A stretch of 64,000 nt of DNA from Thermincola carboxydiphila (GTDB lineage: Bacteria > Bacillota > Thermincolia > Thermincolales > UBA2595). Numbering within the stretch: position 1 is the first letter of the stretch; every line of letters starts with the position of its first letter. The notes under the pieces are model-generated. The model saw only the letters and a list, made by a program, of their open reading frames with translations. It made no database searches and was not told where the DNA came from. Of this stretch, positions 31,691 through 63,680 are shown one piece after another. The translations under genes and the position numbers were made by a program. The stretch lies in contig JAENZX010000002.1 in the NCBI GenBank assembly GCA_016841045.1, positions 211,412 to 275,411 on the forward strand. The letters run 5' to 3'.

Positions 31691-31766
<76 letters not shown>

Positions 31767-31772
31767 AATTAC

Positions 31773-31849
31773 GGAGCTGTGGTGTAGAGGCCTAACATGC
31801 CTGCCTGTCACGCAGGAGATCGCGAGTTCGAATCTCGTCAGCTCCGCCA
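31773..31849 (+). tRNA. tRNA-Asp (GTC), copy 1
   Basis: The acceptor GGAGCTG pairs with CAGCTCC, the anticodon is GTC, the discriminator is G, and CCA is encoded. Confidence 0.97.
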
Positions 31850-31853
31850 TTTT

Positions 31854-31929
<76 letters not shown>

Positions 31930-31995
31930 TCTAATTATAATATGCGGACTAGGTAAAAAAAATCTTAAAAAATCGGATATCACCAAAATTTACAT

Positions 31996-32025
31996 TTGAC
32001 TTCTCTGTGCCGACTATGCTATACT
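31996..32025 (+). promoter_or_regulatory. Promoter of the second tRNA block
   Basis: TTGACT (31,996-32,001), 18-bp spacer, TATACT (32,020-32,025) with an upstream TG (extended -10), about 35 bp before the second tRNA-Val. Confidence 0.75.
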
Positions 32026-32059
32026 TATTTTTGTCGACACGGCAAATGGTTCGACATAA

Positions 32060-32135
<76 letters not shown>

Positions 32136-32141
32136 AATTAC

Positions 32142-32218
32142 GGAGCTGTGGTGTAGAGGCCTAACATGCCTGCCTGTCACGCAGGAGATCGCGAGTTCGA
32201 ATCTCGTCAGCTCCGCCA
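32142..32218 (+). tRNA. tRNA-Asp (GTC), copy 2
   Basis: Identical to copy 1. Confidence 0.97.
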
Positions 32219-32222
32219 TTTT

Positions 32223-32298
<76 letters not shown>

Positions 32299-34686: not shown

Positions 34687-34775
34687 GCCCGAGTGGCGGA
34701 ACTGGCAGACGCACAGGACTTAAAATCCTGCGAGGCTCAACCCTCGTACCGGTTCGACCCCGGTCTCGGGCACCA
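34687..34775 (+). tRNA. tRNA-Leu (TAA), island attachment site
   Basis: The class II tRNA of 89 nt has acceptor GCCCGAG/CTCGGGC, an anticodon loop CTTAAAA, a long variable arm and an encoded CCA. Its 3' 60 bp recur at 63,621-63,680. Confidence 0.97.
34716..34775 (+). other. attL: tRNA-Leu 3' end
   Basis: This is the left copy of a 60-bp direct repeat bounding the island. Three mismatches separate it from the right copy, and the last 31 bp (34,745-34,775) are identical. Being inside an intact tRNA, it is the copy that keeps the gene functional. Confidence 0.85.
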
Positions 34776-34939: not shown

Positions 34940-35909
34940 ATGGCAAATCAAAAAAACAAACTAAAAACATCTAAAAGGCAACGCAGGACTGGAAATCTTA
35001 CGCAATCGTTAGCAGTTCAAATTACGCAGTTCCTAGTTCACTGTTACCAAAGAAACTTGACACAAAACACGGTTGATACATATGAACGGCATTTAGGTAA
35101 ATTTGAGAAACACCTGGTTTCGATTGAACACTCTACTCTTGTTTCAGATATTGACAAGAATCATATAAATGCATATATTCTTTTACTCAAACAAGTAGAG
35201 ACTTTGAGTCCTAATACTATCAATTCGGTCATACGGCATCTAAGGGCGTTTTTTTCGTATTTAGTTGAGAACTCAAATTGTAGAAAAAAGCCCATTAACG
35301 CAAGTGAAGAAATTGCGTGTTGATGAAGAGCCACTAAGGCCTTTCACAGATAGACAAATCAAATTGCTGTTAAGTCAACCCGATAAATCAACATATGTTG
35401 GGTATCGAGACTATATAATCATGAGCTTGTTACTTGGTACTGGAATAAGGGTGTCCGAATTAATTAATATAAGATTTGGGGATATTGACCTCCAACAAGG
35501 GAGTATTCTTGTTAGGGTATCAAAAGCCAGAAAACCGAGGTTAGTAGGACTTCCTAAATTATTAAGAGTAGATTTACAAAGGTTTTTTCAACTTTGTTAC
35601 GAATCTTTGTCCCAAGAAGATTTTGTATTTCAGAATATTGATGGAGGACAAATTAGTGTTAGAACTGTACAGGAGCGAATAGCTAGTTACGGTAAACATT
35701 TAGGGATGATTGGGGTAAGGTGTAGTCCTCATACATTTCGAAGAACTTTTGCTATTTCTTATTTAAAGAATGGTGGGAGTACCGCATCTTTACGGCAACA
35801 GTTAGGGCATTCCTCATTACAAATCGTAGAAAAGTATCTTTATTGGTCTGATAAGGATATTTTAGTGGAACATGAAAAGTACAATCCTATTGATAAAATG
35901 AACTATTAA
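34940..35909 (+). pseudogene. Tyrosine recombinase (island integrase), frameshifted
   Basis: Two frames make one XerC/D-like recombinase. 34,940-35,323 encodes the SAM-like core-binding domain. The C-terminal catalytic domain continues in the +1 frame to 35,909, with GTGIRVSELI (catalytic Arg), HTFRRTFA (His-x-x-Arg), LGHSS and a Tyr in EKYLYW. The frames switch at a run of six A (35,284-35,289); one A fewer restores NCRKSPLTQVKK. AAGGAGG precedes the ATG. It lies 165 bp from the tRNA-Leu end, as expected for the integrase of this island. It may be inactive, or rescued by slippage on the A-run. Confidence 0.8.
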
Positions 35910-36184: not shown

Positions 36185-37222
36185 ATGGGCTATTATATGG
36201 TCAAGTTCGATAATATTGTTACTTCGTTTAGTTTTTACAATAAGATATTGCCTCGACTACATTCATATTTTGTAATGGGGATAAGAGATGAAATAATGTT
36301 TGATTTTTCCGATGTTGAATTTGTTCAGCCATTAGTTTTACCAAATTTAATGGTGGTTGCATCTAAGTTAAAAGAGTATTTTAAAAACCCTATAAAGCTT
36401 TATATTCCTTGGAATCCGAAATTACTGTCTTATTTGAAGGATATTAATTTTTTTCTATTTGTTAAAAAGTTTTCACTGTTTGAAATTGATGAGAGATATA
36501 CCGGTGGTTATCATAAACGAGTATTATATGATGAGTGCAAAACCTATGCCTTTGAATATGGTACTTCTAAAGAGATGATAAGAGAAGAACTCAGAAATTC
36601 TATCTCAATAATTGAAAAGATTTCTCAAAAACCTTCTGCTTTTACTGAGAGTTCATCTGAACGATTGCTACGCATTATTACAGAAATTTGCCATAACGCT
36701 TGTAATCATAGTGGTAATAAGTGTTTTGCTACATTTCAGTCTAATTACTCTACAAGGTCTAAATATAAGAAGGCCTACATCGCAATTTCAGATGGAGGTA
36801 TTGGTTATTATGGTTCGTTTAAGGAACGATTAGAAAATGGGAGAGATATAGACCTTACAGTTACCGACAAGGAACATTTTTTATCTTTTAAAGATGACAA
36901 AAATTTGTATGCGATTTTGGAAGCCATTTTCTATCGCAAGGATTTTAAAATGTTTGGTATCTATCAAGTCATGACACAGGTTCTTCATAACAATGGAGTG
37001 GTTAGAATTCATAACGATGACACTCAATTGATTTTTACTAAAAAGAATTTTCTTAAATATATAAATAACTGGGATGCCTTAATTGAGGCGTTTAAGGGTT
37101 CACTTAAAAATGTAATTGATAATGAACTAGATATTCAATTCTCTCCATTAAGAAGAAATGAATCTAGATTAGCTGGTGTACATATTGAAATGGAAATTCC
37201 TCTTAATATGGAGGGTAGATAA
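36185..37222 (+). CDS. STAS-like domain fused to a GHKL (HSP90/histidine-kinase-type) ATPase
   Basis: In this 345-residue protein, residues 1-100 resemble a STAS domain (DFSDVEFVQPLVLPNLMVVA). The C-terminal part is a GHKL ATPase with N-box E167, N171 and N174 (ITEICHNACNHSG) and G1 box SDGGIGYYGS (D203). There is no phospho-acceptor His domain and no membrane segment. STAS plus GHKL recalls anti-sigma/anti-anti-sigma switches. It is the first gene of a four-gene operon with two PRTase-like proteins and ThyX, and starts after AGAGGTAGG. I infer a signal-sensing or switch role in a predicted conflict system. Confidence 0.65.
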   Translation: MGYYMVKFDNIVTSFSFYNKILPRLHSYFVMGIRDEIMFDFSDVEFVQPLVLPNLMVVASKLKEYFKNPIKLYIPWNPKLLSYLKDINFFLFVKKFSLFEIDERYTGGYHKRVLYDECKTYAFEYGTSKEMIREELRNSISIIEKISQKPSAFTESSSERLLRIITEICHNACNHSGNKCFATFQSNYSTRSKYKKAYIAISDGGIGYYGSFKERLENGRDIDLTVTDKEHFLSFKDDKNLYAILEAIFYRKDFKMFGIYQVMTQVLHNNGVVRIHNDDTQLIFTKKNFLKYINNWDALIEAFKGSLKNVIDNELDIQFSPLRRNESRLAGVHIEMEIPLNMEGR

Positions 37223-37223
37223 A

Positions 37224-38171
37224 ATGTATAGTTATCGGTTAAATGAAAACTCTCTATATATCCCTATTCATATGAATAAGATTTTCGGTGCAGAAAAAAG
37301 CAATTTTGAGAAAGACAATATTGACCAATTATTGGTAAACGATGTGAAGTCTGAGATATTAAAATTACAGTATGAAAATTATATTTTAGATTTTGCTTGG
37401 ATGAAGTTTGTCAATGATATTAGTTTTATAAAGTTTATTCAGGAAATTCAAAGCCTTGATAAGGGTCTAATATTTATAAATTTAAGTGATGTAGTTTATG
37501 ATTTTATTAAAAATGCGTCGTCTGACGAATTTTTATGTTCGGACGAATCTACAACAAAAATGTATAATAATCAAGGACAAGTTTACTGTGAATCAGTTGA
37601 TATTTTAGAAATTGTAGCAGAGTTTAAAATCGATTTCGTAAAACACTATTTGAAAAACAACTCAATTCCAGGCCCTCAGTATTTAGAATCGTCAAATATT
37701 TGGAGTAATATGTACATTAACATTAAAAAAACATTTGTGGATACAGAAGTGTTTAACTTTTTCATCTACGAAATGTGTAACTTAATTATGACAAACTTTG
37801 ATAAAAATAAGGACTTCAATTATCTCGTTTGTGCAAGTAATAACGGTGCTGCACTGGCAACCATTATTGGACAAGTTTTGAACATTGAAGTTTTATATTT
37901 GATGAATTTAGGACCGCATTTAACTTTACGGGACAGAGAATTTATTAATAAAATCAAAAAAGATAAAAAATATTTATTTGTTTTTGATTTTATCTGTTTA
38001 GGTACTGAATTAAAAATGGCAAAGACGATAGTTAGGATTAAAAAAGCCGATGTAGTGGGAGCGGTAGGGGTAGCCAAATTTCTGGCACCATCAAAAATGT
38101 CTGTTTTGGCTTTGGCTGATTTATACAATGATGATAAAGTTAAATACGAGGTAACTGTAAGAAAATCTTGA
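37224..38171 (+). CDS. STAS-like domain fused to a phosphoribosyltransferase-like domain
   Basis: The 315-residue protein has an N-terminal region (about 40-115; ILDFAWMKFVNDISFIKFI) that mirrors the STAS-like domain of the gene upstream. The C-terminal part (about 190-300) has a type I PRTase-like core: LVCASNNGAALATIIGQVL, then YLFVFDFICLGTELKMA, where the PRPP-loop motif normally reads DDxxxTG. The Thr of the loop is replaced, so catalysis is uncertain. The ATG at 37,224 has GGAGGG upstream and starts directly after the first gene. Ligand binding rather than transfer is possible. Confidence 0.6.
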   Translation: MYSYRLNENSLYIPIHMNKIFGAEKSNFEKDNIDQLLVNDVKSEILKLQYENYILDFAWMKFVNDISFIKFIQEIQSLDKGLIFINLSDVVYDFIKNASSDEFLCSDESTTKMYNNQGQVYCESVDILEIVAEFKIDFVKHYLKNNSIPGPQYLESSNIWSNMYINIKKTFVDTEVFNFFIYEMCNLIMTNFDKNKDFNYLVCASNNGAALATIIGQVLNIEVLYLMNLGPHLTLRDREFINKIKKDKKYLFVFDFICLGTELKMAKTIVRIKKADVVGAVGVAKFLAPSKMSVLALADLYNDDKVKYEVTVRKS

Positions 38172-38186
38172 TAAGGAGTAATTACA

Positions 38187-39809
38187 ATGGGTCAGAACTT
38201 GGAAGAAAATTATTCATGTATAAAAAAGCTTGAGGGGACGGATTACCATAAGAATTGGAGGACACTTCGAGATACTTACGAGGGCGTTTTAAACGAAGGT
38301 CCTGTCAGGCAAGATATTGCTTTTACTCCCCATGACTATAGGCGACACTGCCAAAACATTTATTACTTTTTAAGTAACCTTTTGATTCCATCGGGAGCTT
38401 ATAATACAATACTTAATCAAGAGCATCTCTTTATACTAGATGTTGCAGTTTTATTTCATGATATTATAATGGCTTTTGACCCTGATTTAAGAGAGACGCA
38501 CAGTCTTGAAGCGAAGAACTACATTTTGGATATTTTGATGAAGGCAGATACAGGTCAGATACTATTATCTGAAGATGAGGCTGGTTTCATTGCGGATGTT
38601 GTTTTAGGACACAGTGATTTAAAAAAAGATGGAAAGGTCGTATCTTGTTCTATAGACTTACTTCCAGAAGCAAGTGATTGTATTGGTCGCCTAGGCCCTG
38701 TTAATGTAAAGCTATTGGCAGCCTTGCTTAGATTGGCTGATGAATTAGATGTAAATTCAAACAGGGTTGCTCGCATTGCGGCTGACAGGTATAACATTAA
38801 CGAGGAGTCCAAAAAATTTTGGAGGCAATGTCTAATTCTTCAGATGGCTTCTACACATCCCAATGATACAAGTATTATTAGACTTATTCCTAAGCATGAT
38901 AAAATAACGCGGGAATCGAACATTGAAGCCGATGTGAGATTACTTATCGAATGTAGGGATAAAATTAATAACGAACTGTCAATGCTTAATAAGAAGGTGT
39001 TTTTTAAACCTGGTGTGTTTCCTGGATGGAACTTTCACAAAGTAGTATTAGATGCAAAAGGAGAAATTGGTGAACGAATTGCAGACTTGGACGGCAAAAA
39101 GCCAAATCCTTTATCAGAAGCTGATACTTCTGTAGATACAAAAAAAAAAGAAAAAGAAGTAGTAACTGATGAGCAGTTTTCTAATCAACTTGAGAAATGG
39201 GTTCTTGAGAAGAAATTCGTTCTAAGTGGACATTATGTTAAGGACGAGGCAACTTCAGCTAGAGATTGGATAAACACTCACGGTGTATTAGAGGACAAAT
39301 TATTTTTGCAAAAGATTACTGACAGGTTTATTACTTATTTAAATCCTGAAGAAAAATATTGTTTAGTAGGATTAGACTTTCCGGGAATAATGATATCTTC
39401 TAGCATAGGCTTTAAAACATCAAACCCCTTTTCTTATATGATTTCTGATAATGCTAAAAAATATCATGCTCCACAAGAAATAACCTTTCATATTAATGAA
39501 GGATATAAAATTATTCTTCTTACCGATGTAATTGTTACCGGCCAAACTGTAAGGGCGGCACTTGCAGAACTAAAAGAGAGAAACAAGGTTACTGATGAAG
39601 ACATCTTTGGTATTTTCTCGATTTTCTACCGAAAACCCTGGGGTAAAAAAGTACAGAAGCATTGTAGCAGTAAAGAAAGTTTAATGAACAAGTTTGATAC
39701 ACAGTTAATAATATTAAACGACAGTTTCGGAATCGAATTATGTAGGAAAGAAACTTGCTGTTTTAAATCATACAATATTGATTTGTATTGTAACAAACCT
39801 ATTGATTAA
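38187..39809 (+). CDS. HD phosphohydrolase-like domain fused to a phosphoribosyltransferase domain
   Basis: The 540-residue protein begins with an HD-type helical domain: H54, the HD pair at 91-92 (VAVLFHDIIMAF), and GHSD around 136. A charged linker (about 300-330) leads to a C-terminal PRTase domain with CLVGLDFPGIMIS and the PRPP-loop-like IILLTDVIVTGQTVRAAL. HD domains hydrolyse nucleotides or phosphodiesters, and PRTases attach bases to PRPP. Together with ThyX immediately downstream this suggests nucleotide remodelling. AAGGAG precedes the ATG at 16 bases from the previous stop. I cannot assign a substrate. Confidence 0.65.
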   Translation: MGQNLEENYSCIKKLEGTDYHKNWRTLRDTYEGVLNEGPVRQDIAFTPHDYRRHCQNIYYFLSNLLIPSGAYNTILNQEHLFILDVAVLFHDIIMAFDPDLRETHSLEAKNYILDILMKADTGQILLSEDEAGFIADVVLGHSDLKKDGKVVSCSIDLLPEASDCIGRLGPVNVKLLAALLRLADELDVNSNRVARIAADRYNINEESKKFWRQCLILQMASTHPNDTSIIRLIPKHDKITRESNIEADVRLLIECRDKINNELSMLNKKVFFKPGVFPGWNFHKVVLDAKGEIGERIADLDGKKPNPLSEADTSVDTKKKEKEVVTDEQFSNQLEKWVLEKKFVLSGHYVKDEATSARDWINTHGVLEDKLFLQKITDRFITYLNPEEKYCLVGLDFPGIMISSSIGFKTSNPFSYMISDNAKKYHAPQEITFHINEGYKIILLTDVIVTGQTVRAALAELKERNKVTDEDIFGIFSIFYRKPWGKKVQKHCSSKESLMNKFDTQLIILNDSFGIELCRKETCCFKSYNIDLYCNKPID

Positions 39810-39826
39810 AAGGGGAAGAGAATACT

Positions 39827-40453
39827 ATGAGAATAATTGAACCAAGCTTTGCTATTGAAGACAACATAGATGGACAAGTAATCTTGCAAAAAATTGAACG
39901 AGCAGGAAGAACCTGTTATAAAAGTGAAGATACTGCCTCTACTGAATCAGCAATAAAATTTATTAGAATGATAATTGCAAATGGTCATGAATCCGTTTTA
40001 GAGCATGAAAAAGTAACGGTTAGAATAATTTGCGATAGGGGAGTAACCCATGAATTAGTCAGACACAGAATTGCTAGTTACAGTCAAGAGAGTACTAGGT
40101 ACTGTAACTATGCAAAAAATAAGTTCCAGAATGAACTAACATTTATTAAGCCTTCATTTTGGGATGAAAATAGTGATAAATATTCTATTTGGTTTGAAAC
40201 AATGCGAAATATTGAGCAGAATTATTTAAGACTAATTGAGCTAGGAGCGGAACCTCAACAAGCAAGAAGTATTTTGCCAAATAGTTTAAAAACTGAAATT
40301 GTTGCTACTATGAATTTGAGAGAATGGAGACATTTTTTTAAATTAAGAACTACAGTAAAAGCCCATCCGCAGATTAGGGAAATAGCTAGACCACTATTAG
40401 ATAAGTTCAAGGAATTAATCCCGGCAATTTTTGATGATATAAATTATAAATAA
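39827..40453 (+). CDS. thyX: Flavin-dependent thymidylate synthase
   Basis: ThyX methylates dUMP to dTMP with FAD and methylene-tetrahydrofolate. The 208-residue protein carries the signature RHR(x7)S at 79-89 (RHRIASYSQES) followed by TRYCNY, and SILPNSLKTEIVATMN near the C terminus. AAAAGGGGAAGAG precedes the ATG. It is the last gene of the STAS/PRTase/HD operon, 17 bases after it, and is followed by a terminator. Whether it is the cell's main thymidylate synthase or cargo for the system cannot be told. Confidence 0.9.
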   Translation: MRIIEPSFAIEDNIDGQVILQKIERAGRTCYKSEDTASTESAIKFIRMIIANGHESVLEHEKVTVRIICDRGVTHELVRHRIASYSQESTRYCNYAKNKFQNELTFIKPSFWDENSDKYSIWFETMRNIEQNYLRLIELGAEPQQARSILPNSLKTEIVATMNLREWRHFFKLRTTVKAHPQIREIARPLLDKFKELIPAIFDDINYK

Positions 40454-40476
40454 CAGCCATAGGCTGTTTTTTTTTG
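40452..40476 (+). terminator. Terminator after thyX
   Basis: AACAGCC, ATA, GGCTGTT, then a run of T. It closes the four-gene operon. Confidence 0.85.
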
Positions 40477-40544: not shown

Positions 40545-41258
40545 ATGAACCAAAATGCCAATTTTTTGGCGTTTAGATACTTTCTAGTGCCTGTTTCCGA
40601 ACAGATGACCATAAACCAGTTAACTGTAGAAGAAAAAGGTCTTATGATGAAACAAATTTTTACTATCTTAGAACAGAGTAATAAGCTTTCTCACAAGATA
40701 CGAGAGAGAAAATACATATTATATCTGAAGGAAAAGATAACAGAAGAAATATATTTATGTAAATTTGCTAAAGAAATATTTAGAACCAAATATAATGAAG
40801 GTGAACATGATATAGAAAGTACACAAGAACAGGAATTTCCTTATGTATACGCCATAATTAACCTCAGAAGGCAAATTATATTAATTCAATCTAAAAGTGC
40901 GGTTTTTAGGGAATTATCTACTGTGAAGAATATTGTTGAGGACTGGTTTTATAATGAAATCGGATGGAGATTCGATTATATCTTTAAATTAGACGAAATA
41001 ACTAATGAACATATCTTCTGGGACTATATTCAGGAATCTGAAAGTATATTTGAAGTCGATTTACGCATGAAGTCACCAAACCTTTTTGGTGGTAGACTTG
41101 AAGTTAGTTCTCTGTTAAAGCAAATTAATTTTACATTTAATAATACAGAGTCCACCCTTAAGTTAAAAAATGAACAGGGTAAATTGAAAATCGACAAGGA
41201 AAATTTGGATGATGCAGTTAAATATATAACTGGAGGCTGGTGGAGAATGGAAAATTAG
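40545..41258 (+). CDS. Unknown protein, probably frameshifted near its end
   Basis: The 237-residue soluble protein is charged, alpha/beta, and I do not recognise it. After its stop, the next frame (from about 41,230) stays open to 41,415 without any ATG, GTG or TTG start. It encodes EWKIRVRRNKEYRVYTSREN and an acidic tail. This reads like the true C terminus, so a single-base indel around 41,230-41,250 is likely and the original protein would be about 290 residues. AAGGAGGT precedes the ATG. It forms a pair with the membrane protein gene that follows. Confidence 0.55.
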   Translation: MNQNANFLAFRYFLVPVSEQMTINQLTVEEKGLMMKQIFTILEQSNKLSHKIRERKYILYLKEKITEEIYLCKFAKEIFRTKYNEGEHDIESTQEQEFPYVYAIINLRRQIILIQSKSAVFRELSTVKNIVEDWFYNEIGWRFDYIFKLDEITNEHIFWDYIQESESIFEVDLRMKSPNLFGGRLEVSSLLKQINFTFNNTESTLKLKNEQGKLKIDKENLDDAVKYITGGWWRMEN

Positions 41259-41417: not shown

Positions 41418-41924
41418 ATGCTAAAAAAGTTAATAGCAATGGTAATAATATTGGTGTTCTTTACCGTATCGGTTTTAATAGTCGAATCTAATCCTGGTAT
41501 CCAACAATCTAAAATAATTAATGACGAGTTTATGTTGAATTTTTTGGGCCTTTTTTTGGGGGTATCGGTTGCGATTGTAACTTTTTTGTTTTCGTCGGTG
41601 GATAAAATAAGAGAATCAATAATTAAAGCAGGGTTTGACGGAGCAGCAAAGAAACAAACTGAAACAACCATCAATAACTTAATCGAAGAATTGAAACAGG
41701 ATTCAATGGCTATATTTGTATTTCTAGTTTTGTTTTTTGGAACTATACTTTTAAAAGATATTGATGTACCATATCTAAAAATAGCTATTTGGGATAAATC
41801 AAGTATATTAAGTTCTATAAAGCTAACATTAGTGTTTTTAACTTTGTTTTCGATATATGATATTATTTCATCCACATTTTTATTGATGAAGGTATCGCAT
41901 AAATTGGACATTACAGATGATTAA
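41418..41924 (+). CDS. Four-helix membrane protein
   Basis: The 168-residue protein has about four membrane helices: 5-22, 40-60, 96-114 and 130-155. A charged cytoplasmic loop lies between the second and third. No family is recognised. It starts three bases after the end of the extended frame of the previous gene, so the two belong to one transcript with its own promoter and terminator. A soluble sensor plus small membrane protein is a common layout of abortive-infection pairs; this is only an analogy. Confidence 0.55.
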   Translation: MLKKLIAMVIILVFFTVSVLIVESNPGIQQSKIINDEFMLNFLGLFLGVSVAIVTFLFSSVDKIRESIIKAGFDGAAKKQTETTINNLIEELKQDSMAIFVFLVLFFGTILLKDIDVPYLKIAIWDKSSILSSIKLTLVFLTLFSIYDIISSTFLLMKVSHKLDITDD

Positions 41925-46262: not shown

Positions 46263-46802
46263 TTAAATACATAAGTTCTGTTGAAAAGATGTACAACTAT
46301 CTGAAATTTTTGTATTCTAATTCCTGTTTCCCCAAAAGACAAAATATCAAATGATTAGATAGTTATTGAAATTATTTACAATGATAGTTCAGAAAGTAAA
46401 ATGGCACTTGATTAAAGTGCCATTTTACTTTGAGGAGGAATATTTTATAAGTTTATCGAAATGAACCCGTTAGATTAAGTTCTAAAGTAAATACGGATTA
46501 ATCGGTTTTCTAAAATTGCACAAACAACGCCGTCTTAGATTGTTATTTGTACCTACTGTAATAAGAAGTTATTGCGGTTATATAAATTGTTTAGGTTTCA
46601 GGCTGGCAGCAATATTCATTGTTCATAGCTGCGTAGCATGGTGGTATTTATCTGTGTGCCAATTACGGCTTGGTTTTTTGAGGTACAATCCATTGGTCTT
46701 CCACTTGCAATTGCTTGTTTCTATCACAGGTTTGAAAAAAGTAGGTTTTGAATCTAGTAATGACTATTAAAAAATATTTGATGATTAGGAGGAAAGTTGA
46801 AC
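46263..46802 (+). other. Intergenic region, no supported gene
   Basis: It holds a terminator at 46,395-46,431 and AT-rich sequence. A short open frame at 46,516-46,770 lacks a ribosome site and protein-like composition. Confidence 0.4.
46395..46431 (+). terminator. Terminator-like hairpin downstream of the nuclease gene
   Basis: AGTAAAATGGCACTT and AAGTGCCATTTTACT form a perfect 15-bp stem around a short loop. Confidence 0.75.
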
Positions 46803-48272
46803 ATGAATTCTTTTCTTCATATTAGTCAAGATTGGTATTTGAAAATTGCAGATTTAATTAAAACTGCAGATATTTCAAAAGATGATATACTGCTTGACGG
46901 TGAAAAGCTAAGCAATAGTACAGATTATAAAATAATTGTTTTAGAGATTTGGCCCGAAAAGATTGATTTTGATAAACTTCTTTTACTTTTATCAGAAGCG
47001 TTAGATGAAAACGGGACATTGTGTCTGGTTCTTCCGGCAGGATTTCTTTTTAGTCAAAGGGATAGGAATAACAGGCTAAATCTACTAAGCTCATTTCATT
47101 TGGAAGGAGTTGTAACATTAAAGCGGGGTGTTTTTAACACGGTTACAATTCCTTTATGTTTGCTTCTATTAAATAAGAAAAAGGGTAATACCTGGTTTAC
47201 GACAGCATCTAACTTAGATGAGTTAAGATTGGTTTTGAATAACAGGAAAGATACGATTAATAGTAAGAGAAATATTTACCATTGCGATAAAGTTGACCCT
47301 AATAATTTGATGCCAGAGCATTATAATGGGGAAATAGCAAGAGTAAATCAAGTTTTAGATCAATATGAAACGAAAAAATTGAATGATGTAGCAGAACTAT
47401 TTGTTGGTAAAAGTATTCCACAAGATGAGCTCGTACAAGAAAAGGGTTTTCAGTATATTAGACCAAGGAATATTAAAGATGAAAAACTAGTTCATTCGGG
47501 AGTTTACATTAAGAATGACCATCTCAGTAGATATGCTAAATACACGTTGCTATCAGGTGATATACTAATATCAAAGCAATTTGGACAGAGAAAAATAGCT
47601 CAAGTAACTGAAGAAGATTGCCCGGCTATAGCCTCAAATGGATTTATTGTTATTCGTCCAACGGAAATTCCGGAACAATATTTGTATAATTATCTTACTA
47701 GCACTGCAGGTAAGTCCATTTTTAATAAGCAGCTTGACTCAATTGAAACAGGGACAACGATTAGAAATCTTAATCTATCGGATATTAAAAAACTCAGAAT
47801 TCCAATATTTGATAATGCAACAATGTTTGAGATGACAAACATCGATAATTTAGATAATATTAGTCTGATTAGATTAGCAGAGCGTTTGGAAAAAAGAGTA
47901 TCTGAATACGAAATGCAGTGTTTAATTGTTTCCCAATTACAGGAACTCGGATGGGAAAAAGAAGAAATCAGAACAGATAATGTAATTTCAGTAAATGGTG
48001 ATGTAAAATATCGTCCAGATATAGTTTTACAGTATAATGAAAAGGCAATTGCAATTGTTGAAATTAAATTAAGATATAATCTTATGTCTGAATTAAGAAT
48101 TCAAATTTCAACTGCTTTAAAACAATATATAGAAGTGCCACTTGTAATAATAACTAATCTTAAAAAGTGTTATTTGTATTTTACCAGAACGGGAGAGCAC
48201 AAAGTATTTAACAATATACCTTCAAAAGGTGATGTAATTGGTCTACTGGGTTACAGTGAGGTGAATGAATAA
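46803..48272 (+). CDS. Degenerate N6-methylase/HsdS-like protein fused to an HsdR-N-type nuclease domain
   Basis: In this 489-residue protein, the N-terminal 130 residues match only the last part of N6-adenine methylases (NGTLCLVLPAGFLFSQRDR and GVFNTVTIPLCLLLL). No SAM-binding or NPPY motif is present. Residues about 180-345 resemble an HsdS target-recognition domain (KLNDVAELFVGKSIP, GDILISKQFGQ). The C terminus has a PD-ExK site (D406, E420, K422 in RPDIVL and AIVEIK) like the type I HSDR_N domain. A TTG at 46,797 is an alternative start. The stop overlaps the ATG of the HEPN-like gene. DNA recognition plus cleavage without methylation is inferred. Confidence 0.65.
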   Translation: MNSFLHISQDWYLKIADLIKTADISKDDILLDGEKLSNSTDYKIIVLEIWPEKIDFDKLLLLLSEALDENGTLCLVLPAGFLFSQRDRNNRLNLLSSFHLEGVVTLKRGVFNTVTIPLCLLLLNKKKGNTWFTTASNLDELRLVLNNRKDTINSKRNIYHCDKVDPNNLMPEHYNGEIARVNQVLDQYETKKLNDVAELFVGKSIPQDELVQEKGFQYIRPRNIKDEKLVHSGVYIKNDHLSRYAKYTLLSGDILISKQFGQRKIAQVTEEDCPAIASNGFIVIRPTEIPEQYLYNYLTSTAGKSIFNKQLDSIETGTTIRNLNLSDIKKLRIPIFDNATMFEMTNIDNLDNISLIRLAERLEKRVSEYEMQCLIVSQLQELGWEKEEIRTDNVISVNGDVKYRPDIVLQYNEKAIAIVEIKLRYNLMSELRIQISTALKQYIEVPLVIITNLKKCYLYFTRTGEHKVFNNIPSKGDVIGLLGYSEVNE

Positions 48273-49585: not shown

Positions 49586-51466
49586 TTGGAGGACAGGATA
49601 TCTAAGTTCAATTACTTGATGATCGATGAATTAAGGGGCAAGATAAATGCAAATTCCTACGTAGAAGTTTTGTCAAAATTGTATTTGTTAGGATATATTA
49701 AGCAACTAAATACAATTGAAGAGATAGCAGAGATACATCCTCATCAAAACTCCCGTGAGTATCTCGAACTGTTGTTTGACAAAATTAGCTCTGAACTCCC
49801 GATGCTCAGTCAGGCCTTATATGATCTTAATGCTGAGAAGAGCCTAAGTGAGCCGACACTAGAGAGATTACTAAAATCGATACTGGATGTTCCATTTGAT
49901 AAAGTGGATTGGAAGAACGCAATTGAAGATCTACTGAGCACTTCCGATGGTGGGAATACCGGAATTATCCAAACTCCACAGTGTTTGAATGAACTTGGAA
50001 TTAAATTGCTGAATCTTCGGGATGGCAGCTTTTATGATGGAACTGCGGGTGTCAATGGCACAGCAATTGCCGCTTTTAAATATGCTCATGAAATAGGGTC
50101 AACCATCTCGCTGCATACCCAAGAGATTGCCCCTTCTCTTGCTGCTGTAGGTTCAATTAGAGCATTTATGCATGGAATCACCGATATACAAACTGCGGTA
50201 GGAGACACAATTGCAAACCCAACATTTACTGACGGAACCCAGTTAAAGAAATTTGATTATATTATGATGGATTTTCCATTTGGAATGGCTTGGCAATACA
50301 AAGAAAACGAATTAATATACGATAAATATTCAAGATTCATTTACGGAAAACCCACTAAATCAAGTTCAGAATGGTTGTTTGTATCCCATATTATTAAATC
50401 ATTAAAAGTGACTGGTAAGGCTATTGTTATGCTTTCAGCTGGATCACTTTTTAATACAGGCACAGAAGCAATCAGAGAAAAAATTATTAAAGAAGATTTA
50501 ATTGAAGCAGTTATTGCATTACCGGCAGGATTATTCAGCCATACCGCTATACCGGTAAATATGCTGATATTAAATAGGGAAAAGGAGAAAAAAGGTAAAA
50601 TACTTTTTGTTAATGCAGAGGATATGGCTATAACAGCCTCAAGATCAAAAAAGGAAATTAGCAGTGAAAACATAACGAAAATTGCTGATATATACAAAAG
50701 AAGTTTAGAGGTTGATGAAATTAGTAAATTAGTCAATTTAGAAGAGCTTCACAAAAACATGTTAATTCCCAATAAATATGTTTCTAAAGCGGAGATCGAG
50801 ACAGAGAAATTTGGAAAGGTCAAAATAAAGCCCGATGAAATAAAAAAATTGGATACATTAGAAAGATTAGGTGCTTTAGGAAAGTTTTATAGAGGAATTA
50901 ATACCTCCTCTTGTACCGAAAATCCAGGGAACGGTAAATACAATATAATTAACCTTGCAGATGTGCAGGTTGGAGAATTAATCTTAGATAGTGTTACAAG
51001 ATACGATATAAATAGAAACGCAAAGATTGACGAGTATACCGTGAGACCTGGAGATATTATTGTCTCTTGCAAAGGTACAGCGACTAAGATTTGCATTATC
51101 CCAGATCATACCGGTCAAATGCTTATTTCTCAAAACTTTATTGGCATTAGGTTAAGTGAACGTCAATCACCTAAGTTCATTAAAGAATTTTTGGAAAGTC
51201 CTCTTGGTAAATATCTGATTGCCAATAAACAGCTAGGTAGTACAATTACAATGTTAAATGTTAAGGATTTGCAAGAAGTACCGGTGTTATCAATACCCTT
51301 AAAAGAGCAAGAAACAATGGTAAAAAGATATGAGGAACTGGTAAAATCGATTAAATCTGAAATATTGAGATTAGAACAGGAAGCAAAAGAAGCACAACTT
51401 AATCTATATAAGCAAATGGGCATCGAAAAAACTTTTAAGTTAATGGGGGAGAAGAATAATGGATAA
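49586..51466 (+). CDS. Degenerate type I methylase fused to an HsdS-like recognition domain
   Basis: The 626-residue protein resembles HsdM over residues about 100-380, with motif I as FYDGTAGVNGTA. Motif IV reads DFPFG instead of NPPF/Y, which should prevent base flipping and catalysis. The C-terminal 220 residues look like a target-recognition domain plus a helical spacer (GKFYRGINTSS, GDIIVSCKG). The start is TTG after GAAGGAG. It overlaps the true hsdM by eight bases and heads the hsd operon. It may be a pseudo-methylase regulatory or specificity subunit. Confidence 0.65.
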   Translation: MEDRISKFNYLMIDELRGKINANSYVEVLSKLYLLGYIKQLNTIEEIAEIHPHQNSREYLELLFDKISSELPMLSQALYDLNAEKSLSEPTLERLLKSILDVPFDKVDWKNAIEDLLSTSDGGNTGIIQTPQCLNELGIKLLNLRDGSFYDGTAGVNGTAIAAFKYAHEIGSTISLHTQEIAPSLAAVGSIRAFMHGITDIQTAVGDTIANPTFTDGTQLKKFDYIMMDFPFGMAWQYKENELIYDKYSRFIYGKPTKSSSEWLFVSHIIKSLKVTGKAIVMLSAGSLFNTGTEAIREKIIKEDLIEAVIALPAGLFSHTAIPVNMLILNREKEKKGKILFVNAEDMAITASRSKKEISSENITKIADIYKRSLEVDEISKLVNLEELHKNMLIPNKYVSKAEIETEKFGKVKIKPDEIKKLDTLERLGALGKFYRGINTSSCTENPGNGKYNIINLADVQVGELILDSVTRYDINRNAKIDEYTVRPGDIIVSCKGTATKICIIPDHTGQMLISQNFIGIRLSERQSPKFIKEFLESPLGKYLIANKQLGSTITMLNVKDLQEVPVLSIPLKEQETMVKRYEELVKSIKSEILRLEQEAKEAQLNLYKQMGIEKTFKLMGEKNNG

Positions 51467-60185: not shown

Positions 60186-61043
60186 ATGAAGGTGATTTTA
60201 AGTAGAAAGGGATTTGACTCCTCAGCGGGCGGATATCCAAGTCCTCACTTTGTTCAAGATGGTAGATTACTTTCATTGCCAATACCCGAAGAAAATAGAA
60301 AAACAGTATTGATACCGGGAGAACATACGCTGATTTAAAATTTGATGATAGGTATTCATACCTTGATATAATGAAGCAATTGGGAATCAAAAAGTTCGAA
60401 AGTAAATTTGTTCATCATGATCCTGATATTAACCCCTTGGTCCTAAAAAATAGACACCGTGACTGGAGAGGGTTATTTGGTCAAAGTAGCAATGCCCAGT
60501 CACATTTAAGAAATAAAGGGGTCAAACTGGGAGATTTATTTTTATTCTTTGGATGGTTCCGCGACGTGGTTAAAACCTCCAACGGATATAAGTTTGTGAG
60601 TGGCACAGATCGGCATATTATTTGGGGATATCTGCAGGTTGATGAAATTCAAAGAATAGAACCAAACAAAGAATATCAGGAATGGAAAAGAGGTCACCCT
60701 CACTATTACTATAGAAACAGAGTACAGAATACAGGCTATATCGCCAGAAATAATCTAAGTTTCGCTCCTCACTTACCAGGTTATGGAGTTTTTGATTACA
60801 AGGATTCATTGGTCTTAACTTGTCCAGGTCAAATGAAACGATCAATTTGGAAATTTCCTAGATATTTTCATCCGAGCTACGGAACGAAAGTGAGCCACCA
60901 TGAAAAATTATTCGACAAATTAAATAACCCTATATGGGAATTATTTGATGATCATTGCATCCTTAAAAGCTTTGGTAGAGGGGCAAGAATTTGTGCTTGA
61001 AGGTAATGATGAAGTTATTAAATGGGCTCACCAGTTGTTCTGA
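60186..61043 (+). pseudogene. Nmad3-like (nucleotide-modification-associated) gene with two frameshifts
   Basis: Three consecutive frames make one protein of about 285 residues. Frame 1 (60,186-60,304) has the family opening MKVILSRKGFDSSAGG. Frame 2 (to about 60,980) has GRTYADLKFDDRYS, HHDPDINP, and FGQSSNAQSHLRNKGVKLGD. Frame 3 (to 61,043) ends GQEFVLEGNDEVIKWAHQLF. The switches lie at runs of five A (60,299-60,303) and four G (about 60,977-60,980). Nmad proteins are predicted to take part in DNA base modification or its detection. As read, the gene is broken. GAGGGTGG precedes the ATG. Confidence 0.65.
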
Positions 61044-63620: not shown

Positions 63621-63680
63621 GGACTTAAAATCTTGCAAGGCTCAACCCCCGTACCGGTTCGACCCCGGTCTCGGGCACCA
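63621..63680 (+). other. attR: duplicated 3' end of tRNA-Leu
   Basis: 60 bp match tRNA-Leu(TAA) from the anticodon arm to CCA with three mismatches. The 31 bp from CGTACC to CACCA are identical. The 5' half of the tRNA is absent, so this is an attachment-site scar and not a gene. Confidence 0.88.

Follow-up and report, generated by a model that had tools for sequence, protein, structure and literature searches.

A 64,000-nt stretch of the genome of Thermincola carboxydiphila (the window) carries on its + strand, at 36185-40453, four intact open reading frames encoding a STAS-GHKL kinase, a STAS-PRTase, an HD-CE-PRTase, and ThyX; the combination is apparently undescribed and is built from known modules. 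Since the same four genes occur in the same order in another genus, the operon is a real unit, beyond chance. The reading we lean to, if tentatively, is that of a mobile conflict operon, most likely directed against phages, in which a kinase/STAS switch would gate an HD/orotate-PRTase (OPRT) enzyme acting on pyrimidine nucleotides, with ThyX safeguarding dTMP.

Operon layout and conservation

The genes are separated by 1, 15, and 17 nt, as the following features show:

36185-37222, + strand: gene 1, 345 aa, STAS plus predicted anti-sigma-type GHKL kinase
37224-38171, + strand: gene 2, 315 aa counted from an in-frame ATG, STAS-like plus OPRT-like
38187-39809, + strand: gene 3, 540 aa, HD-CE plus OPRT-like
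39827-40453, + strand: gene 4, 208 aa, second ThyX
40452-40468, + strand: intrinsic terminator closing the operon, 7-pair stem and then a T run

An earlier reading of the letters alone (the original prediction) had described four + genes spaced by 1-17 bases and ending in a terminator, and its coordinates, the gaps, and the terminator were all reproduced. A promoter scan was uninformative (27 matches, 24.5 expected), and PADLOC recognized none of the four proteins. The two genes just 3′ of the operon (40545-41258 and 41418-41924) are without a match in Pfam, PADLOC, or NCBIfam and lie outside the conserved unit.

A degenerate DNA pattern of the gene 2 loop gave 42 matches, including the ortholog locus on IMG/VR contig 2834443690_000002, which is the same DNA as NZ_NADJ01000038.1 of Desulfosporosinus sp. 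FKB. There, the four genes encode proteins of 338, 328, 553, and 211 aa, with 50, 44, 44, and 72% identity to genes 1-4, and are arranged with a 4-nt overlap followed by gaps of 2 and 12 nt; the search for the same gene order that had been suggested as a check thus found it kept, thyX included. In the window, the operon is flanked by a recombinase remnant and a gene of no recognized family, in Desulfosporosinus by genes for a probable membrane protein, a serine recombinase, and an OLD/AriA-like nuclease; because the flanks differ between the two genomes, the conserved unit ends at the four genes.

These are the two independent loci of the operon in the collections searched; no further copy was found there, and its occurrence is sporadic. 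Scans with 8-residue patterns of single proteins gave no match in GTDB contigs (gene 3) or IMG/VR (genes 1-3), such patterns being too specific, and IMG/VR searched with the two-row alignments and patterns yielded no contig beyond the Desulfosporosinus one. Searches by tblastn, with genes 1-3 in plasmids and with genes 1 and 3 in phages, gave just a weak CapK-like plasmid match to gene 1, and in about 400 genomes of the same phylum (largely one set) genes 2 and 3 matched just PyrE-like proteins.

A tRNA-borne island

The operon lies inside a 28.9-kb island (34687-63680) at a tRNA-Leu gene, with these features at its ends:

34745-34775, + strand: left attachment repeat, 3′ end of tRNA-Leu(taa) 34687-34775
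34940-35909, + strand: tyrosine recombinase, broken into two frames (34940-35323 and 35265-35909), left end of the island
63650-63680, + strand: right attachment repeat, 31 nt identical to the left one, end of the island

The exact 31-nt repeats sit within 68-nt copies which are 91% alike, and the catalytic half of the broken recombinase is 36% identical to a recombinase near the Desulfosporosinus operon. The GC content of the operon is 32%, compared to mostly 38-45% in the sequence preceding the island. Other genes of the island encode a UvrD/GajB-like helicase and a PD-(D/E)XK protein, type I R-M-like proteins, a complete HsdM-HsdS-HsdR set, Nmad3, and GmrSD; judged by this content and these ends, the element is a tRNA-borne defence island.

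Two of the type I R-M-like proteins are unusual: in the one encoded at 46797-48272, a specificity domain is combined with a methylase fragment and the N-terminal domain of HsdR, and in the one at 49586-51466 with a methylase. The gene for the Nmad3 (nucleotide modification associated domain 3) protein, at 60371-61000, lies directly 5′ of the GmrSD gene. At 31691-32298, a tRNA-Val/Asp/Phe cluster occurs twice in tandem.

The kinase and its putative STAS partner

The domains assigned to genes 1-3, all on the + strand, are:

gene 1, about residues 1-112, + strand: STAS, N-terminal part
gene 1, N box E167-N171-H175 and G1 box D203-G205-G207, + strand: GHKL, boxes conserved
gene 2, about residues 1-125, + strand: STAS-like N-terminus, from model topology and Foldseek
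gene 2, about residues 133-287 (37620-38084), + strand: OPRT-like domain, PRPP loop FDFICLGTE at 254-262
gene 3, residues 45-253 (38319-38945), + strand: HD-CE, with H54, H91-D92, H105, H142, and D185
gene 3, about residues 333-482 (39183-39632), + strand: OPRT-like domain, loop TDVIVTGQT at 446-454

The GHKL part of gene 1 is marginal by Pfam (HATPase_c_2, E=0.24); compared with the STAS-GHKL family phrog_3364, the protein scores E=5.9e-13 over residues 34-229. In 388 genomes of the same phylum, the phrog_3364 profile found one-ORF STAS-GHKL proteins and, lower down, matches with an internal stop codon, which in the cases opened were adjacent spoIIAA-spoIIAB-like genes 5′ of a sigma factor (names read from sequence). 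As the profile also spans consecutive STAS and GHKL genes, gene 1 is read as a fusion of STAS with a GHKL kinase domain of anti-sigma type, the kinase activity being predicted. Foldseek, used with a low-confidence model of gene 1, returned RsbW/RsbV and SpoIIAB/SpoIIAA. The one GHKL ATPase that had been proposed for the set is thus borne out, and N171 was correctly placed as one of its residues.

AlphaFold models computed with two-row alignments reached a pLDDT of 49 and 55 and, because of this low confidence, were used for topology alone. The gene 2 model is best at the N-terminus (pLDDT mostly 60-85), which has the strand-helix order expected for STAS and RsbS as its top Foldseek match (probability 0.89, E=0.06). 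Of the two genes said to open with STAS-like regions, gene 1 does so, and for gene 2 the model topology supports a STAS domain at moderate strength. When two sequences, gene 2 and its ortholog, are compared with CapS-like partners in ungapped register, the acceptor position is I66 in gene 2 (S67 is adjacent) and R in the ortholog (S precedes it), serines thus being displaced by one or two residues, so that the phospho-serine of CapS/VapS is, at the level of sequence, not clearly conserved; the gene 2 STAS domain may therefore dock without being phosphorylated.

OPRT-like domains and the HD-CE domain

Genes 2 and 3 each encode a PRTase domain that profile comparisons assign to the orotate-PRTase (PyrE) type. 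Gene 2 matches NCBIfam pyrE_Therm at 2e-4 (its Desulfosporosinus ortholog at 5.5e-6) and gene 3 matches pyrE at 6.9e-6, its ortholog scoring above the Pfam PRTase cut-off; against 26 PyrE proteins (hhalign, about 145 columns), the values are E=1.3e-7 for gene 2 and E=2.7e-9 for gene 3. In the PRPP loop, VVEDVVTTGGS of PyrE aligns with FVFDFICLGTE of gene 2 and LLTDVIVTGQT of gene 3. In gene 2 and its ortholog, the two copies known, the loop is degenerate, and that of gene 2 does not keep the [ED]D-x(4)-TG-x-[ST] pattern; that of gene 3 is nearly kept, with the phosphate-binding part present and the first of two acidic residues lost. The two predicted PRTase-like domains are thus present; the one in gene 2 looks catalytically degenerate and, instead of being a second enzyme, more probably serves in regulation or as a partner in a dimer.

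The HD phosphohydrolase domain foreseen for gene 3 is a match to HD-CE (PF24391, E=1.4e-20, 74.5 bits with a cut-off of 27), and the HD residues had been correctly placed at 91-92; the metal ligands H91-D92, H105, H142, and D185 are invariant in gene 3, its ortholog, and a distant HD-CE protein. Among five HD-CE relatives scanned, four have GHKL fused to HD-CE, a link between the two domains. A second HD-CE protein, with a GHKL ATPase domain fused on, is encoded in the same genome (contig C32, 24725-25576; locus L013). An HD-CE protein of similar length (537 aa, locus L015) was considered as a counterpart of gene 3 and rejected, as its architecture differs.

A dedicated second ThyX

Gene 4 had been named as ThyX, and it matches PF02511 with E=1.5e-53 (181.9 bits) and has an intact RHR-x(7)-S-x-R motif (RHRIASYSQESTRY, residues 79-92). 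No match to ThyA was found in the genome of the window. The operon ThyX is nevertheless not a stand-in for a missing ThyA, an explanation ruled out because a housekeeping ThyX is encoded in the genome, on a different contig; Desulfosporosinus sp. FKB has two thyX genes as well. Identity is 72% within the operon pair of ThyXs, 55% within the housekeeping pair, and 31-34% between the pairs, and the operon pair groups together in the tree with support of 100/99 without, and 84/99 with, distant housekeeping rows. By this pairing and the conserved order, ThyX is a dedicated, co-inherited part of the operon, in agreement with its original inclusion in the unit. The nearest ThyX outside the pair (69%) is encoded on a fecal contig of bacterial look (cmk and ispH-rpsA read from sequence), so the operon type of ThyX is not exclusive to the operon. 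Elsewhere, the neighborhoods of ThyX (loci L045-L049) are unrelated to the operon, and related ThyXs are present in a phage-plasmid and in phages, 2,099 records of which gave a match.

Comparison with known systems

CapK is an ssDNA-activated STAS-GHKL kinase, and ssDNA activation has been proposed for VapK; in CapK-CapS and VapK-VapS-VapC, the kinase phosphorylates a STAS partner, which then releases DNA or a toxin, and vapKSC gave E. coli about 2-log protection against a phage (PMC13373217). The operon resembles VapK-VapS-VapC in its order of STAS-GHKL kinase, putative STAS partner, and enzyme and in its setting among defence genes; however, it lacks the VapC/PIN nuclease and has HD-CE/OPRT and ThyX as genes 3 and 4, the putative STAS partner carries a degenerate OPRT domain and shows no evident conserved acceptor serine, and thyX is added. 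A STAS-GHKL kinase beside a STAS-domain protein in immune operons is likewise found with CapK-CapS, but that pair consists of an HTH-STAS-GHKL kinase and a STAS-wHTH repressor, whereas neither gene 1 nor gene 2 contains an HTH or wHTH, which makes direct protein control more likely than transcriptional repression. HD-CE-GHKL fusions have the same HD-CE with its metal ligands and link GHKL to it; in the operon, GHKL is separate and STAS-linked, and HD-CE is fused to an OPRT-like domain.

The HD enzyme of Clover (CloA) is a dGTPase activated by dTTP (PMC12265719), and Clover (CloA-CloB) thus shares with the operon a nucleotide hydrolase of HD type that is tied to thymidine nucleotides. Yet the HD family is a different one, the CloB nucleotidyltransferase is absent here (CloA/CloB-type profiles matched none of the four operon proteins), and Clover has neither ThyX nor kinase, STAS, or OPRT. 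From PyrE, which genes 2 and 3 match by profile comparison over full-length OPRT-like domains, they differ in the degenerate loop of gene 2, the loss of the first acid in that of gene 3, and the fusion of both to other domains. The PRTase effector of Type III-A retrons is another PRTase in a defence setting, but no reverse transcriptase was found among the island proteins scanned and the PADLOC retron PRTase model gave E=0.64. Lacking defining parts of VapKSC, CapK-CapS, Clover, and retrons, the operon belongs to none of them; at most, it works in a VapKSC-like manner.

A thymidylate synthase domain is present in a validated defence unit (PMC13092281). The four-gene combination is not described in the literature searched (open-access papers), and the original remark that no experimental description was known thus holds for the whole, but not for the STAS/GHKL half, for which CapK-CapS and VapK-VapS-VapC are precedents (PMC13373217).

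Proposed mechanism and alternatives

Orotate PRTases are dimers with shared active sites, which makes the degenerate PRTase of gene 2 a likely docking partner and brake of gene 3. By analogy, gene 1 would sense a stress cue, for which ssDNA is a precedent, and, via the STAS domain of gene 2, would alter the gene 2/gene 3 complex. Relief of the gene 2 brake by the kinase would release gene 3, whose HD domain, and perhaps also its PRTase, might then degrade or rewire pyrimidine (deoxy)nucleotides needed for phage DNA synthesis, and ThyX could restore or shield dTMP, allowing the cell to tolerate this activity or to recover from it. Of the original suggestion, the domain reading, the operon structure, and the conservation are confirmed, and a conflict role would suit an operon placed in a mobile defence island; anti-phage activity, nucleotide depletion, substrates, the path of the signal, and what ThyX does, including the direction of its effect, are what we infer.

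For ThyX, protection or restoration of dTMP is our first choice, and its main rival is a part in trigger or substrate supply. The same architecture might use ThyX as part of the trigger or of the attack itself, raising dTMP/dTTP so that the HD enzyme becomes active, supplying its substrate, or consuming dUMP. This we regard as unlikely: dTTP does activate the Clover HD enzyme (PMC12265719), ThyX is inside the operon and co-inherited with it, and related ThyXs occur in phages, but HD-CE and CloA belong to different HD families, no dTTP site is known in HD-CE, and, as both hosts make dTMP by their own ThyX, a signal from extra supply would always be on unless expression were induced. The hosts' own ThyX also speaks against an operon for stress or nucleotide salvage that belongs to a mobile element and aids replication of the element or its host under thymine limitation or DNA damage rather than defence, as do the location among R-M and GmrSD genes in a defence island and a regulatory architecture mirroring immune operons; metabolic enzymes such as ThyX and HD/OPRT, related ThyXs in phages and a phage-plasmid, and STAS-GHKL kinases near recA and cinA would suit it, and we give it slightly less credence than a ThyX trigger.

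More doubtful still is a biosynthetic conflict operon, in which PRTase, HD, and ThyX, controlled by kinase and STAS, would make a modified pyrimidine nucleotide serving as a signal or a chain-terminating antimetabolite. Joining of base and PRPP by OPRT, trimming of phosphates by HD, and methylation of a uracil nucleotide by ThyX would all be at hand, yet the loop of gene 2 is degenerate, that of gene 3 lacks one acid, and the conserved unit contains no ligase, transporter, or effector for such a product. That a three-gene operon merely has a passenger thyX as a chance neighbor is very improbable; ThyX is common in mobile elements and phages, but order, tight spacing, and outer boundaries are kept despite the divergence of genes 1-3 (50, 44, and 44% identity) and the different flanks, and among the relatives found, none is closer to either operon ThyX than the other one of the pair.

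Beyond the preferred conflict role, it is conceivable, and in our view somewhat less probable than that role, that the operon represents a new class of immune operons in which an anti-sigma-type kinase/STAS switch controls an active and an inactive OPRT/HD pair rewiring pyrimidine deoxynucleotides, with a ThyX kept on purpose as built-in immunity or as source of the signal. If so, nucleotide metabolism would join transcription factors and an RNase among the targets of kinase/STAS switching, HD-CE domains and PRTases would gain a testable role in conflict systems, and there would be a reason for a second, mobile ThyX in a bacterium. A dedicated thymidylate synthase in a defence-type operon makes protection of the cell's own dTMP during phage starvation a testable question.

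Relatives of the kinase elsewhere

The partners of gene 1 relatives are small STAS or STAS-wHTH proteins; the single weak plasmid relative found by tblastn, a CapK-like one, is followed by a STAS-wHTH gene. At one locus (L149, 2623-4109), a STAS-GHKL kinase and a CapS-like STAS-wHTH partner are encoded directly 5′ of a gene reading as recA, and at two others (L150, 6001-6855; L154, 5775-6632) lone STAS-GHKL genes adjoin a gene reading as cinA; these kinases are possibly chromosomal, ssDNA-sensing relatives of CapK. On a Cytobacillus plasmid (L042, 7908-15361), genes like those for CapK and CapS precede ThiF/DUF6527 and a DarT/macro-domain pair.
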